Of a DNA stretch of 64,000 nucleotides, positions 33,331-38,835 are shown piece by piece (positions within the stretch are counted from its first letter, which is position 1; every line of letters starts with the position of its first letter). The notes under the pieces were generated by a model, which was given only the letters and a program-made list of their open reading frames with translations, was not told the DNA's origin and did not search any database. The DNA comes from Coriobacteriia bacterium (GTDB taxonomy: Bacteria; Actinomycetota; Coriobacteriia; Anaerosomatales; Anaerosomataceae). The stretch spans positions 1-64,000 of the forward strand of contig JAUSOQ010000043.1 in assembly GCA_030655755.1 (NCBI GenBank), in the 5' to 3' direction. A program made the translations under genes and the position numbers.

Positions 33331-35100
33331 ATGTTCGACGCACGTTATTCGATCCGTTCACATGTAGCCGGCTCGCTTCGGGCTGAGAACGTGGGGGAGA
33401 CTGTCACCGTCGCCGGGTGGGTACACCGTCGCCGCGACCATGGCGGGCTGATATTCATCGACCTGCGCGACCGCAGCGGTCTTGTGCAGTGTGTCTTCGA
33501 TCCCGAAGCGTCCGGTGAGGCTTTCGTGTTGGCCGAGCGAGTGCGCCCGGAGTGGGTCGTTCAACTCACGGGTACGATTCGGCCTCGTCCTGAAGGCAGC
33601 GTGAATCCCAACCTCGAGACCGGGGCGATCGAGATCGTCATCACCTCTGCCGAGGTGCTGAACACTTCTGAGACGCCGCCGTTCGAGGTGGATGCGGCCA
33701 GTGAGACGGATGAGACTCTGCGCTTGAAGTACCGCTACATCGATCTTCGTCGCCCTGAGGCTCTCGACGCGCTGATCCTGCGCGATCGTGTCACGCAGCG
33801 TTTCCGCAAGTCACTGGAGCACCGCGGCTTCCTCGAAGTGGAGACGCCGATACTCGGCAGGTCGACGCCGGAGGGTGCGCGGGACTTCATCGTGCCGAGT
33901 CGGCTCAACCCTGGCGAGTTCTACGCGCTGCCACAGTCTCCGCAGCTCTTCAAGCAGTTGCTCATGGTGGGTGGCGTCGAGCGTTACTACCAGATCGCGC
34001 GGTGCTTCCGCGACGAGGACTTGCGCGCCGATCGCCAGCCCGAGTTCACCCAGGTCGATATCGAGATGTCGTTCGTGACGCAGGACGACGTGATCACCAT
34101 GATGGAAGACGTCATGCACGAGGTGATGCGTGAGGCGGATGTCGACCTCGTGACGCCGCTTCGACGTATGACGTACGCCGAGGCTATGGATCGGTTCGGA
34201 TCGGACAGGCCTGACCTTCGCTTCGGTATGGAACTAGCATGCCTGAGTTCGGTGTTCGCCGAGTCGGAGTTCAAGGTCTTCGCGAGCGTGCTTGCCGCAG
34301 ACGGCCGCATCAAGGGCATCAACGCCAAGGGTGCGGGCGACTGGAGCCGGGGCCGTATCGACGCGCTCAATCAGGTTGCACTCGATGCCGGCGCCAAGGG
34401 ACTCGCGTGGGTCGCGTTCCCGACCGAGGGCGACGTGCGTTCGCCCATCGCGAAGTTCTTCACCGATGAGGAGATGGCGGGGCTCAAGAAGGCGCTCGAT
34501 GTCGAGCCGGGTGATCTCGTGCTGATGATCGCTGATGGGCACGGTGTCGCCAACGAGGTGCTGGGCGTGTTGCGGCTGCACATGGCCGAGGAACTGGCTG
34601 TGCCACGCGTCGGCTTCGAGACCCTCTGGGTCGTCGATTTCCCGCTCTTCAAGTGGGACGCTGAAGAGCAGCGCTATGCTGCGAACCACCACCCGTTCAC
34701 TCGTCCGTTCGACGAGCACGTCGACTGGCTCGAGGAGCGGCCACTTGAAGTGTTGTCGTACTCCTATGACCTCGTGATGAACGGTCTGGAGATCGGTGGA
34801 GGCACTCTTCGTATCCATGACGTCGCCTTACAGCGTAAGGTCCTGGGTATCCTCGGGCATGGCGAAGTGCAGGCGGAAGAGCAGTTCGGCTTCCTGCTTG
34901 AGGCACTATCGCTGGGAGCTCCGCCGCACGGCGGTATCGCGCTCGGTCTGGATCGTCTCATCATGGTCCTTGCGGGCAAGCACTCCATTCGCGACGTGAT
35001 CGCATTTCCGAAGACATCGTCCGGCTCTTGTCCTCTGACGGGCGCGCCGGGAGAGGTATCGGCTCGACAGTTGCGTGAGGTCCACCTCAAGAGGGACTGA
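33331..35100 (+). CDS. aspS: Aspartyl-tRNA synthetase
   Basis: Charges tRNA-Asp, perhaps also tRNA-Asn. The 589-residue bacterial-type enzyme has an N-terminal OB fold (VAGWVHRRRDHGGLIFIDLR), motif 2 (RYYQIARCFRDEDLRADRQP, EFTQVDIEMSF), the bacterial GAD insertion, and motif 3 (GGIALGLDRLIMVLAGKHSI, RDVIAFPKTSSGSCPLTGAP). The start is ATG 33331 with AAGGAA. It is followed by the 6S RNA locus. Confidence 0.96.
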   Translation: MFDARYSIRSHVAGSLRAENVGETVTVAGWVHRRRDHGGLIFIDLRDRSGLVQCVFDPEASGEAFVLAERVRPEWVVQLTGTIRPRPEGSVNPNLETGAIEIVITSAEVLNTSETPPFEVDAASETDETLRLKYRYIDLRRPEALDALILRDRVTQRFRKSLEHRGFLEVETPILGRSTPEGARDFIVPSRLNPGEFYALPQSPQLFKQLLMVGGVERYYQIARCFRDEDLRADRQPEFTQVDIEMSFVTQDDVITMMEDVMHEVMREADVDLVTPLRRMTYAEAMDRFGSDRPDLRFGMELACLSSVFAESEFKVFASVLAADGRIKGINAKGAGDWSRGRIDALNQVALDAGAKGLAWVAFPTEGDVRSPIAKFFTDEEMAGLKKALDVEPGDLVLMIADGHGVANEVLGVLRLHMAEELAVPRVGFETLWVVDFPLFKWDAEEQRYAANHHPFTRPFDEHVDWLEERPLEVLSYSYDLVMNGLEIGGGTLRIHDVALQRKVLGILGHGEVQAEEQFGFLLEALSLGAPPHGGIALGLDRLIMVLAGKHSIRDVIAFPKTSSGSCPLTGAPGEVSARQLREVHLKRD

Positions 35101-35114
35101 CGGGAACGCGGCCG

Positions 35115-35141
35115 GTAGCACCTCCGTGGGTGAGGTGCTAC
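35115..35141 (+). promoter_or_regulatory. Perfect 10-bp inverted repeat overlapping the 6S RNA promoter
   Basis: GTAGCACCTC (35115-35124) and GAGGTGCTAC (35132-35141) form a 10-bp stem with a 7-base loop, 14 bases after the aspS stop. The right arm overlaps the likely -10 box TACGAT (35139-35144) of the RNA gene. No T-run follows, so operator and terminator readings are both open. Confidence 0.5.
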
Positions 35142-35149
35142 GATACTTG

Positions 35150-35320
35150 TGGCTCTGCCTTGCGTGGAATCGGCTACAACGGTCGAACCAACATTTGTAC
35201 CGAGGGAGCCCTACATCTCTCGGCGGAGTGGTATCCCGATAAGGGAAGCGTGACGCCGAGGTGCGGGCACCCACCTGCTGAGGCAGGTTCACCATGCCGA
35301 CCACGCGAGGCGGGGTTCAA
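35150..35320 (+). ncRNA. ssrS: Probable 6S RNA
   Basis: 6S RNA mimics an open promoter and binds the housekeeping RNA polymerase in stationary phase. A 15-bp closing stem pairs 35153-35167 with 35301-35315 (12 Watson-Crick and 3 G-U pairs, no mismatch). A terminal stem pairs CTCGGCG (35219-35225) with CGCCGAG (35254-35260), capped by CCC/GGG. Between them is a large internal bubble whose 3' strand has a small hairpin, CCTGC-TGAG-GCAGG (35274-35287), preceded by GGGCACCCACCTGC, as I recall from other Gram-positive 6S RNAs. In B. subtilis a 6S RNA gene also lies near aspS and rarA. The 5' end follows TACGAT; the 3' end is not precisely defined and no T-run is seen. Confidence 0.72.
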
Positions 35321-35347
35321 AGGCCGCCACACCGGTGGAGGGGAAGT

Positions 35348-35902
35348 ATGCGCAGAATCATCGCAGTACTCGTCGCTTTAAGCATGGCGTTCGTCATCGT
35401 TGGTTGTGGCGGTGGTGGGGAAGCGGCCGTTGATGCCACAGAAGCCGAGGGTGCGGCTGCAGCCGCACCTGCGGTCGTAGTCGCTGGGCCCGCGGAAGAC
35501 GTTCTTTCTCCGGTCGAGTCGGGCTACCCGGCGCCGTTCCCTGAGACCATCAACACTGAGATACCCGAGGCCATCCAGCAGAAGCTCGATGACGGTCGTC
35601 CAATGGTGATCTTCTTCTATGACGGCATGCAAGTCGTTACCACAGACCAGCGCACGGAACTCGACGCCGCTCTTGCGGAGTATCGTGGATTGATCGATCT
35701 GGTGACCTTCAACCTGGCGAGTCCGGTGGATTCGCCGCCTGGTGAAGACGTCAAGGTCGCGACGGTCCTTGCCGCAGACCTGGGTATCACGGCCACGCCG
35801 TACATCATGATCGTGGACCGCAACGGCTTCGTGACCTGGCGCTACAAGGGCTACATCGACCGTGAGGTCATCGGCCGAGAGGTTCTTCGCGCCACGGAGT
35901 AA
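35348..35902 (+). CDS. Thioredoxin-fold lipoprotein without a CxxC site
   Basis: A 184-residue protein beginning at ATG 35348 after GGAGGGGAAG. The signal peptide ends in IVGC, so Cys20 should be lipidated; an Ala/Glu-rich linker follows. The remainder resembles thioredoxin: PMVIFFYDGMQVVTTDQRTE in the place of the WCxxC strand and helix, and TATPYIMIVDRNGFVTWRYK with the cis-proline loop. The two redox cysteines are missing (FYDGMQVV), so ordinary disulfide exchange is not possible. It may bind a partner rather than catalyse. It stands between the 6S RNA and rarA. Confidence 0.72.
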   Translation: MRRIIAVLVALSMAFVIVGCGGGGEAAVDATEAEGAAAAAPAVVVAGPAEDVLSPVESGYPAPFPETINTEIPEAIQQKLDDGRPMVIFFYDGMQVVTTDQRTELDAALAEYRGLIDLVTFNLASPVDSPPGEDVKVATVLAADLGITATPYIMIVDRNGFVTWRYKGYIDREVIGREVLRATE

Positions 35903-35906
35903 CGGC

Positions 35907-37184
35907 ATGGAGGACCTGTTCTCTGAGCTGACCGAGCAGTCACTACGCGAGGGCGCGCCACTCGCCGCACGCATGCGGCCGCGTACCCTCGACGAATTCG
36001 TGGGCCAACAAGATGCGGTTGGTCCGGGCACGGTGCTTCGCGCCGCCATCGAAGGCGACACTCTTTCGTCGCTCATCCTGTACGGTCCTGCAGGCTGCGG
36101 AAAGACCAGCCTTGCGCGCATCATAGCGGGGGCCACCCGGTCGCACTTCGTTGAATTGTCGGCCGTGAGCTCGGGCGTGAAGGACGTGCGCCTTGCAATC
36201 GATGCAGCGCGCGAGAGACTTGGTCTTACCGGACAGCGCAGCATCGTGTTCATCGATGAGATACACAGGTTCAACCGAGCACAGCAAGACGCTCTGCTCC
36301 ACGCGGTCGAAGAACGGCTCATCGTATTGATCGGTGCGACGACTGAGAACCCCTTCTTCGAGGTCAACGCGCCACTCATCAGCCGTTCCCGTGTGGTCGA
36401 GTTTGATCCTCTCGGCGATGCCGATATCCGCTTGATCGTCGAGACGACGCTGAAGGATGTCGAGAGGGGGCTTGGCGGTACGTACGAGCTGCTCCCGGAG
36501 GCGCTCGACCGGATAGTCCTTACTGCTGGCGGCGATGCACGCAGCGCGCTGACGACTCTTGAACTTGCGGCGTCGATCTCACTGCGGTCAGGGGAGGGTC
36601 TGTCGCGCATCACCGAGGAGTCGGTGTCCGAGGCGACACACACTCGCGCACTTACCTACGACAAGGCGGGAGACGCACACTACGATGTCGTCTCGGCGTT
36701 CATCAAGTCCATGCGCGGCTCTGACCCTGATGCGGCGGTGTACTGGCTTGCCCGTATGGTACACGGGGGCGAAGACCCCAAGTTCATCGCACGCCGGATG
36801 TTGATCTTCGCCTCGGAGGATGTCGGGCTTGCGGACAACAATGCGTTGCTCGTGGCGCACGCTGCAGTGAAGGCTGCAGAGTTCATCGGTTGGCCGGAGT
36901 GCCGGATCAATCTCGCGCATGCGGCGATCTACCTCGCTCTCGCGCCGAAGTCCAACGCCGCGTACCGTGCGATAGACAGTGCTCTGGCCGAGGTTCGTGA
37001 GGGGGCTGCCCGCAGCGTGCCTGACCATCTCCGCGATCGACACCGTCCGGGCGCCGAAGCCTACCCGCAGTACCGGTATCCACATGAGTACCCTGGTGCT
37101 TGCGTCGATCAACAGTACTTGCCGGATGGTCTTGAATGTTGTTGCTTCTTCCCCCGGACTTCGGAGCTCGCCGACAAAGAGTAG
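35907..37184 (+). CDS. rarA: Replication-associated recombination protein A (RarA/MgsA)
   Basis: A AAA+ ATPase that acts at stalled replication forks. The 425-residue protein has ARMRPRTLDEFVGQQDAVGP, Walker A GPAGCGKTS, Walker B FIDEIHRFNRAQQDALLHAV, sensor IGATTENPFFEVN, and the C-terminal tetramerisation region (SMRGSDPDAAVYWLARMVHG; RRMLIFASEDVGLADNNAL). The start ATG 35907 is 4 bases after the lipoprotein stop. The last about 20 residues (CFFPRTSELADKE) are less conserved but do not indicate truncation. Confidence 0.95.
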   Translation: MEDLFSELTEQSLREGAPLAARMRPRTLDEFVGQQDAVGPGTVLRAAIEGDTLSSLILYGPAGCGKTSLARIIAGATRSHFVELSAVSSGVKDVRLAIDAARERLGLTGQRSIVFIDEIHRFNRAQQDALLHAVEERLIVLIGATTENPFFEVNAPLISRSRVVEFDPLGDADIRLIVETTLKDVERGLGGTYELLPEALDRIVLTAGGDARSALTTLELAASISLRSGEGLSRITEESVSEATHTRALTYDKAGDAHYDVVSAFIKSMRGSDPDAAVYWLARMVHGGEDPKFIARRMLIFASEDVGLADNNALLVAHAAVKAAEFIGWPECRINLAHAAIYLALAPKSNAAYRAIDSALAEVREGAARSVPDHLRDRHRPGAEAYPQYRYPHEYPGACVDQQYLPDGLECCCFFPRTSELADKE

Positions 37185-37664: not shown

Positions 37665-38054
37665 ATGCGATCTGACCGAGTCACACTCACGGTGCCGGCT
37701 AGAAGCGAGTTCGCCAAGACCGTACGAATGACTGTCGCTGAGCTAGCGAGTCGTATCGGCATGTCTTATGACGAAGTCGATGACGTGCGCATGGCTGCCG
37801 AGGAAGCCTTCATCTATGCATGTAATCGCTCGGATGGCGATGATGTGACGTTCTCGCTCGATCTGCTCGAGGATGGCATCGCTGTCACGGTCGGTCCGGT
37901 TCCGGTGACCGATGGGGCTGCGTCGGAAGATGAGACGCAGGACCGCTATGCGGTATTCATCCTCGAGTCGGTCTGTGACGAGTTCGAGATCAGTCATACC
38001 GCCGAGGGAAGCACACTGCGATTGGTCAGGCGCATGGGTGGCAGCTGTGCCTAG
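37665..38054 (+). CDS. RsbW-like anti-sigma factor with reduced ATP-binding site
   Basis: A 129-residue protein of the histidine-kinase-like ATPase fold. VDDVRMAAEEAFIYACNRS is the N box of RsbW/SpoIIAB, which holds SigB/SigF-type sigma factors and phosphorylates anti-anti-sigma proteins. The second half reads IAVTVGPVPVTDG, where active members have a DxGxG-type ATP-contact loop, and RYAVFILESVCDEFEI in place of the GlGL loop; both are degenerate. It overlaps the sigma gene by 8 bases, so the pair is coupled. No RsbV-like gene is next to it. It may bind sigma without kinase activity. Confidence 0.75.
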   Translation: MRSDRVTLTVPARSEFAKTVRMTVAELASRIGMSYDEVDDVRMAAEEAFIYACNRSDGDDVTFSLDLLEDGIAVTVGPVPVTDGAASEDETQDRYAVFILESVCDEFEISHTAEGSTLRLVRRMGGSCA

Positions 38055-38835
38055 AAGTGTCCGTCATTCTCAGAACCGACGACTCGTTTGGGACAAACAG
38101 CGAACGCGCGAGTTGTTCGCGCATTACCGCGAATTCGAGGACGAGGAATCACGTGACGAACTCATCACGATGTACCTCAACCTCGTGAAGTACCTCGCGA
38201 GTAGGTTCCGGAACCGGGGTGAGCCGATCGACGACCTCATCCAGGTGGGCACCATCGGACTCATCAAGGCGATCGATCGCTTCGACACATCGCGGGATGT
38301 CGAGTTCACGACCTACGCGACTCCTACCATCATCGGAGAACTCAAGCGGTACTTCAGGGATAAAGGTTGGGCGATCAAGGTCCCGCGGCGCCTCCAGGAG
38401 CTTTCGTTCCGCGTGAATCAGGCTATTGATCAGCTCACACAGCGGCTTCAGCGGTCGCCCGCGATCCTGGAGATCGCCGAGTACCTCGGTGTTACTTCCG
38501 AGGAGGTCCTGGAGGCGATGGAGACGTCAGAGGCGTACAACTTCGTGTCACTTGAGAGCGACCGCAACTCTGACGGGAGTGACTCGTTCAGCATCCTTGA
38601 GTACATCGGCAAAGATGACCATCTTATGGCGGTCGTCGACGATCGCACTACGCTGGCGTCCGCCCTCAAGCACCTGACACCTCAGGAGCAACGTGTGCTC
38701 TATCTGCGTTTTTTCCAGGGACTCACGCAGACAGAGATAGCCAGTCAGCTCGACATCTCGCAGATGCAGGTCTCGCGTCTGTTGCGCAGAACGCTGAGAG
38801 TCATGCGCGAGCATCTTGTCGCCGAGGAGGTCTAA
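38047..38835 (+). CDS. SigB/SigF/SigG-type RNA polymerase sigma factor
   Basis: A 262-residue sigma factor with regions 2, 3 and 4: LVKYLASRFRNRGEPIDDLI, QVGTIGLIKAIDRFD, FTTYATPTIIGELKRYFRD, GWAIKVPRRLQELSFRVNQA, then LTPQEQRVLYLRFFQGLTQT and EIASQLDISQMQVSRLLRRT. This is the general-stress/sporulation class. The start chosen is GTG 38047, inside the end of the RsbW-like gene. In actinobacteria this type usually governs stress. The partner upstream is probably its antagonist. Confidence 0.9.
   Translation: MPRSVRHSQNRRLVWDKQRTRELFAHYREFEDEESRDELITMYLNLVKYLASRFRNRGEPIDDLIQVGTIGLIKAIDRFDTSRDVEFTTYATPTIIGELKRYFRDKGWAIKVPRRLQELSFRVNQAIDQLTQRLQRSPAILEIAEYLGVTSEEVLEAMETSEAYNFVSLESDRNSDGSDSFSILEYIGKDDHLMAVVDDRTTLASALKHLTPQEQRVLYLRFFQGLTQTEIASQLDISQMQVSRLLRRTLRVMREHLVAEEV

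Follow-up and report, generated by a model that had tools for sequence, protein, structure and literature searches.

6S RNA is a small RNA that holds back the main transcription machinery of the cell. In Escherichia coli, no terminator precedes ygfA, the gene downstream of ssrS, and 6S RNA is processed from a longer ssrS-ygfA transcript. In Bacillus subtilis, published work places 6S-1 RNA (bsrA, RF00013) between aspS and yrvM, and rarA lies beside 6S RNA in lactic acid bacteria (PMC8414754). The pRNA of B. subtilis 6S-1 is GUUCGGUC, also given as GUUCGGUCAAAACUA (PMC12005410), and pRNAs are reported to carry GG commonly at positions 4/5 or 5/6 (PMC8414754). 6S RNAs have been described as widespread except in Actinobacteria (PMC9130861), where none is said to have been identified save one disputed Streptomyces candidate (PMC11077062), and a literature search, its scope not including the survey of Wehner et al. 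(2014), found nothing relevant on 6S RNA in Coriobacteria or their genera. In the same phylum, Ms1 of Mycobacterium and Streptomyces is likewise a central-bubble RNA and binds RNA polymerase.

We describe here a 6S RNA gene in a deep-branching actinomycete of Coriobacteriia type, found in a window of 64,000 nt (the whole stretch of DNA analysed). It shares with B. subtilis 6S-1 the rod, the central bubble with a hairpin on its 3' side, the immediate upstream neighbour aspS and a rarA gene close by, together with a predicted G-initiated pRNA, in which GG occupies positions 4/5 here and 5/6 in B. subtilis. Unlike 6S-1, which is followed by yrvM, the RNA probably lies in the leader of a lipoprotein gene, without an intervening terminator, and a second copy was not found in the genome, whereas B. 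subtilis has both 6S-1 and 6S-2. E. coli 6S RNA matches the same Rfam model but has a different downstream neighbour and a diverged sequence. As judged from the sequence, both the structure and the locus are those of an ordinary 6S RNA; what is noteworthy is the phylum of its host, the leader arrangement and the relatives that score below the Rfam cut-off.

Identity, fold and covariation of the RNA

The sequence-only reading had proposed a probable 6S RNA gene at 35115-35330, and both a covariance search and the covariation of the stems support it. A cmscan search of the whole window against Rfam 15 returned an end-to-end match to RF00013 (model positions 1-187 of 187, E 5.3e-8), which at 54.2 bits lies only 8 bits over the gathering cut-off of 46.4 and is the sole match over any gathering score in the window. 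Matches to 6S RNA were found in 54 of 61 genomes (the host genome and 60 relatives). From the -10 box and the stem geometry, the mature RNA is predicted to be ~165-170 nt long. The features of the locus are collected in Table 1.

Table 1. Coordinates of the 6S RNA gene, its structural elements and its neighbours in the window
Feature	Position	Strand	Remarks
aspS, aspartyl-tRNA synthetase	33331..35100	+	Pfam tRNA-synt_2, anticodon and GAD domains
Perfect 10-bp inverted repeat GTAGCACCTC/GAGGTGCTAC	35115..35141	.	Overlaps the -10 box; read from sequence
Extended -10 box TGC-TACGAT	35136..35144	+	Predicted transcription start near 35151
6S RNA gene	35149..35320	+	RF00013 match, covariation; mature RNA predicted at ~35151-35318
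Closing stem, 5' strand	35153..35167	+	15 pairs with 35301-35315
TCGGC, inward extension of closing stem	35170..35174	+	Pairs with GCCGA 35296-35300 in the minimum-energy fold
Predicted pRNA template	35172..35192	+	Predicted start opposite C35192, product GUUGGUUCGACCG..., +/- 1 nt
Apical (terminal) arm, closing helix GGGAGCC...GGGCACCC	35204..35272	+	Helices 2-5 of the model
Hairpin in 3' side of bubble, CCTGC-TGAG-GCAGG	35274..35287	+	98.9% of cells paired, 54 relatives
Closing stem, 3' strand	35301..35315	+	15 pairs with 35153-35167
GGAGG ribosome-binding site of lipoprotein gene	35337..35341	+	Directly 3' of 6S RNA, no terminator between
Lipoprotein, thioredoxin-like (fold guessed from sequence), 184 aa	35348..35902	+	6S RNA is its probable 5' leader
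rarA / mgsA	about 35907..37184	+	Pfam MgsA_C, AAA

The structural elements noted earlier were all recovered. The closing stem pairs without a mismatch (CTCTGCCTTGCGTGG with CCACGCGAGGCGGGG), three of its 15 pairs being G-U as read from the sequence. The terminal hairpin is present as an apical arm in which GGG at 35204-35206 pairs with CCC at 35270-35272 and pairing continues inward, and the small hairpin on the 3' strand of the bubble consists of CCTGC (35274-35278), the loop TGAG and GCAGG (35283-35287). The matched stretch folds to -89.8 kcal/mol, compared with -64.4 +/- 4.7 kcal/mol for dinucleotide shuffles (z = -5.4), and none of 200 shuffles folded as low (single-strand fold).

Covariation in related genomes was counted on a model-fitted alignment of 54 distinct sequences, in which standard pairs make up 95.6% of the pair cells. 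Two-sided changes occur at 26 of 45 pairs and in 159 cells, counts that the fitting to the structure makes somewhat too high. The shuffles average 13.4 pairs and 41.8 cells, and the slid controls give 8-14 pairs and 16-31 cells. On a plain MAFFT alignment, the structure proposed by RNAalifold itself shows two-sided changes at 19 of 42 pairs. The closing-stem arm contributes such changes at 15 of 21 pairs and the apical arm at 11 of 19, with 93-100% of the apical cells paired. The inward extension of the closing stem is kept less well, some of its pairs being broken in 14-19 of the 54 sequences. The small 3'-side hairpin is nearly invariant and therefore too uniform to show covariation. In addition, RNAalifold pairs columns 33-36 of alignment A1 with columns 46-49, which gives the 5' strand of the bubble a small hairpin of its own. 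This hairpin shows 0 two-sided changes, and the closing-stem extension is modelled in its place; the two may be alternative states.

These substitution patterns also bear on whether the stretch codes for a small protein. The frame at 35130-35381, predicted earlier to be a false call, is open for 83 codons, and 40 of the 54 GC-rich relatives have at least one frame without a stop across the RNA. However, substitutions in the 6S stretch follow base pairing, and the protein is not conserved among the 54 genomes: an in-frame stop interrupts 27 of the 54 best matches, and residues 10-75 are covered solely by the window's own sequence. We therefore rejected the small protein and give a coding function practically no credence.

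Neighbouring genes, predicted promoter and probable leader arrangement

The expected placement between aspS and rarA, likened earlier to the neighbourhood of B. subtilis 6S RNA, was borne out, with aspS upstream, rarA downstream and, between the RNA and rarA, a lipoprotein gene that had gone unmentioned. The lipoprotein has no Pfam match; relatives of the neighbouring rarA come from Coriobacteriia and Anaerosomatales-type genomes. The arrangement aspS-6S-lipoprotein-rarA is kept in the order, with aspS at 50, the lipoprotein gene at 54 and rarA at 49 of 54 loci; some of these loci are cut off by the edge of the contig or of the locus. In most of 30 other actinobacterial loci aspS lies directly 5' of the RNA, the gap between them commonly being 60-70 nt, and aspS, 6S RNA and rarA follow one another in the same order in Brevibacillus. 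The link to aspS was not seen in several gut Coriobacteriia, in which 6S RNA either adjoins rarA, in one orientation or the other, or is found at another place. Because aspS and 6S RNA are also linked in Brevibacillus and in further Actinomycetota, the RNA is most likely an orthologue of B. subtilis 6S-1.

Two further observations concern the neighbourhood. Distant homologues of the lipoprotein (21-27% identity) follow 6S RNA in other actinobacterial loci (for example, L135, L161 and L162). About 2.4 kb downstream of 6S RNA lie two genes, one for an anti-sigma kinase of the RsbW type (37665-38054) and one for an alternative sigma factor of the SigB/SigF type (~38026-38835), and both stay near rarA in relatives from the order (L031-L041). 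The proximity of a polymerase-blocking RNA to a stress sigma factor raises the question of joint regulation.

Upstream of the stem, a TAnnnT box is found at a narrow distance in 51 of 54 genomes, compared with 0-4 of 54 when the position is shifted by as much as 100 nt upstream, and this conservation indicates that transcription should start at the position given in Table 1. A consensus promoter scan of 35000-35500 found nothing, and the promoter call therefore rests on conservation across genomes. The inverted repeat that overlaps the box has shorter GTAGC...GCTAC versions in several family members, and it could be a regulator site or operator, the 3' end of aspS, or a chance result of a symmetric promoter. 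The -10 region is also partially complementary to the start of the lipoprotein gene, which probably reflects codon choice.

A terminator scan of 35000-35500 detected no terminator-like site. A T-run of at least 4 follows the stem in 3 of the 54 order members but in 9 of 15 loci outside the order, most of them from named Coriobacteriia (Fisher p 1.5e-5, uncorrected for kinship). The lipoprotein start codon lies 28 nt downstream of the 6S match in the window, and usually 22-37 nt downstream across the order. Given the lack of a terminator and the nearly fixed distance of the lipoprotein gene, trimming of a longer transcript that also spans the lipoprotein gene is the probable source of the RNA, in the manner of E. 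coli ssrS-ygfA. The same absence of a terminator and the constancy of the spacing could suggest that the RNA is merely a structured leader of the lipoprotein mRNA, such as a riboswitch-like element, and not a free small RNA. However, the RNA matches 6S, and outside the order it occurs without the lipoprotein gene, often with a T-run terminator after it (the 9 of 15 loci above), indicating that what is conserved is the RNA itself and not its place in a leader; we consider the leader explanation highly unlikely.

Predicted function

The 5' side of the bubble carries a near-invariant GGUCGAACCAACA block, and this conserved block is the basis on which the 5' side is predicted to be the pRNA template. 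The start within it is predicted from the Rfam consensus alignment and from comparison with the B. subtilis 6S-1 pRNA. The explanation that we regard as very probable is a canonical 6S RNA with its own -10 promoter, predicted polymerase binding and pRNA release, and trimming from the lipoprotein transcript; the structure, the covariation, the conserved -10 box, the synteny and the absent terminator motif are the observations behind it. After transcription from its own promoter, the rod with its central bubble would, as in the family, mimic an open promoter and bind RNA polymerase carrying the primary sigma factor. Binding would occur mostly in stationary phase, and promoters of the primary sigma factor would be transcribed less. 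Once nucleotides are plentiful again, the polymerase would copy the 5' side of the bubble into a short pRNA beginning GUUGGUUCG, and this synthesis would refold the 6S RNA and free the enzyme.

Str11 of Streptomyces coelicolor, which has the same kind of locus and is predicted to fold like 6S RNA, does not bind RNA polymerase, whether as core or as holoenzyme. Locus and shape alone therefore do not prove function, which we infer here. Str11, however, belongs to a lineage of the phylum in whose RbpA-bearing genomes RF00013 found nothing. The only studied actinobacterial RNAs of 6S shape are Str11 and the core-binding Ms1, which might suggest that the present RNA has drifted to an Ms1-like binding of core polymerase without a sigma factor, or to some other role, as RNAs of Mycobacterium and Streptomyces have done. 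However, Ms1 is longer (~230-300 nt), carries additional hairpins in the case of M. smegmatis and is flanked by HAD hydrolase/oxidoreductase genes (PMC9130861). Such flanks are absent here, where aspS and the lipoprotein gene border an RNA that has a predicted 6S length, the Rfam consensus in its bubble and the neighbours of 6S-1. We therefore consider an Ms1-like or other role unlikely, and a canonical 6S RNA remains our preferred reading.

6S RNA and RbpA in the phylum

At E <= 0.001, RF00013 matches 278 of 298 genomes of the class, but just 44 lie above the cut-off, and the Rfam gathering score thus misses ~85% of the 6S genes of the class. With most copies below the cut-off, automatic annotation will under-report them, and the low scores may be the reason that 6S RNA has been overlooked in the class. 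An order-specific model, R1, found 6S RNA in 145 of 149 sampled class genomes, including ones that RF00013 missed. The results show that almost all Coriobacteriia have 6S RNA and that many further lineages of the phylum have it as well, contrary to its published absence from Actinobacteria.

In a phylum sample of 396 genomes, RF00013 matches occur in 141, and RbpA (PF13397), a protein that binds the polymerase, occurs in 61 genomes of a same-size phylum sample drawn in the same way. No genome of the 396 has both, compared with ~22 expected by chance without correction for kinship, and 194 of the 396 have neither at the sensitivity used. Both are clade-bound, and the independent events may therefore number only one or two. 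We tentatively suggest, as a possibility that we think somewhat doubtful, that the aspS-linked 6S RNA dates back to an ancestor of both Bacillota and Actinomycetota. Coriobacteriia and other lineages of the phylum would then have retained it, while the lineage that gained RbpA would have lost it, Ms1 taking over. Cultured Coriobacteriia that carry a 6S gene exist (Slackia piriformis and a Gordonibacter), so that the phylum itself allows tests of 6S function, of the loss of 6S RNA and of how Ms1 arose. If the history suggested above is true, control of the primary holoenzyme would be exerted either by 6S RNA or by RbpA, each excluding the other.
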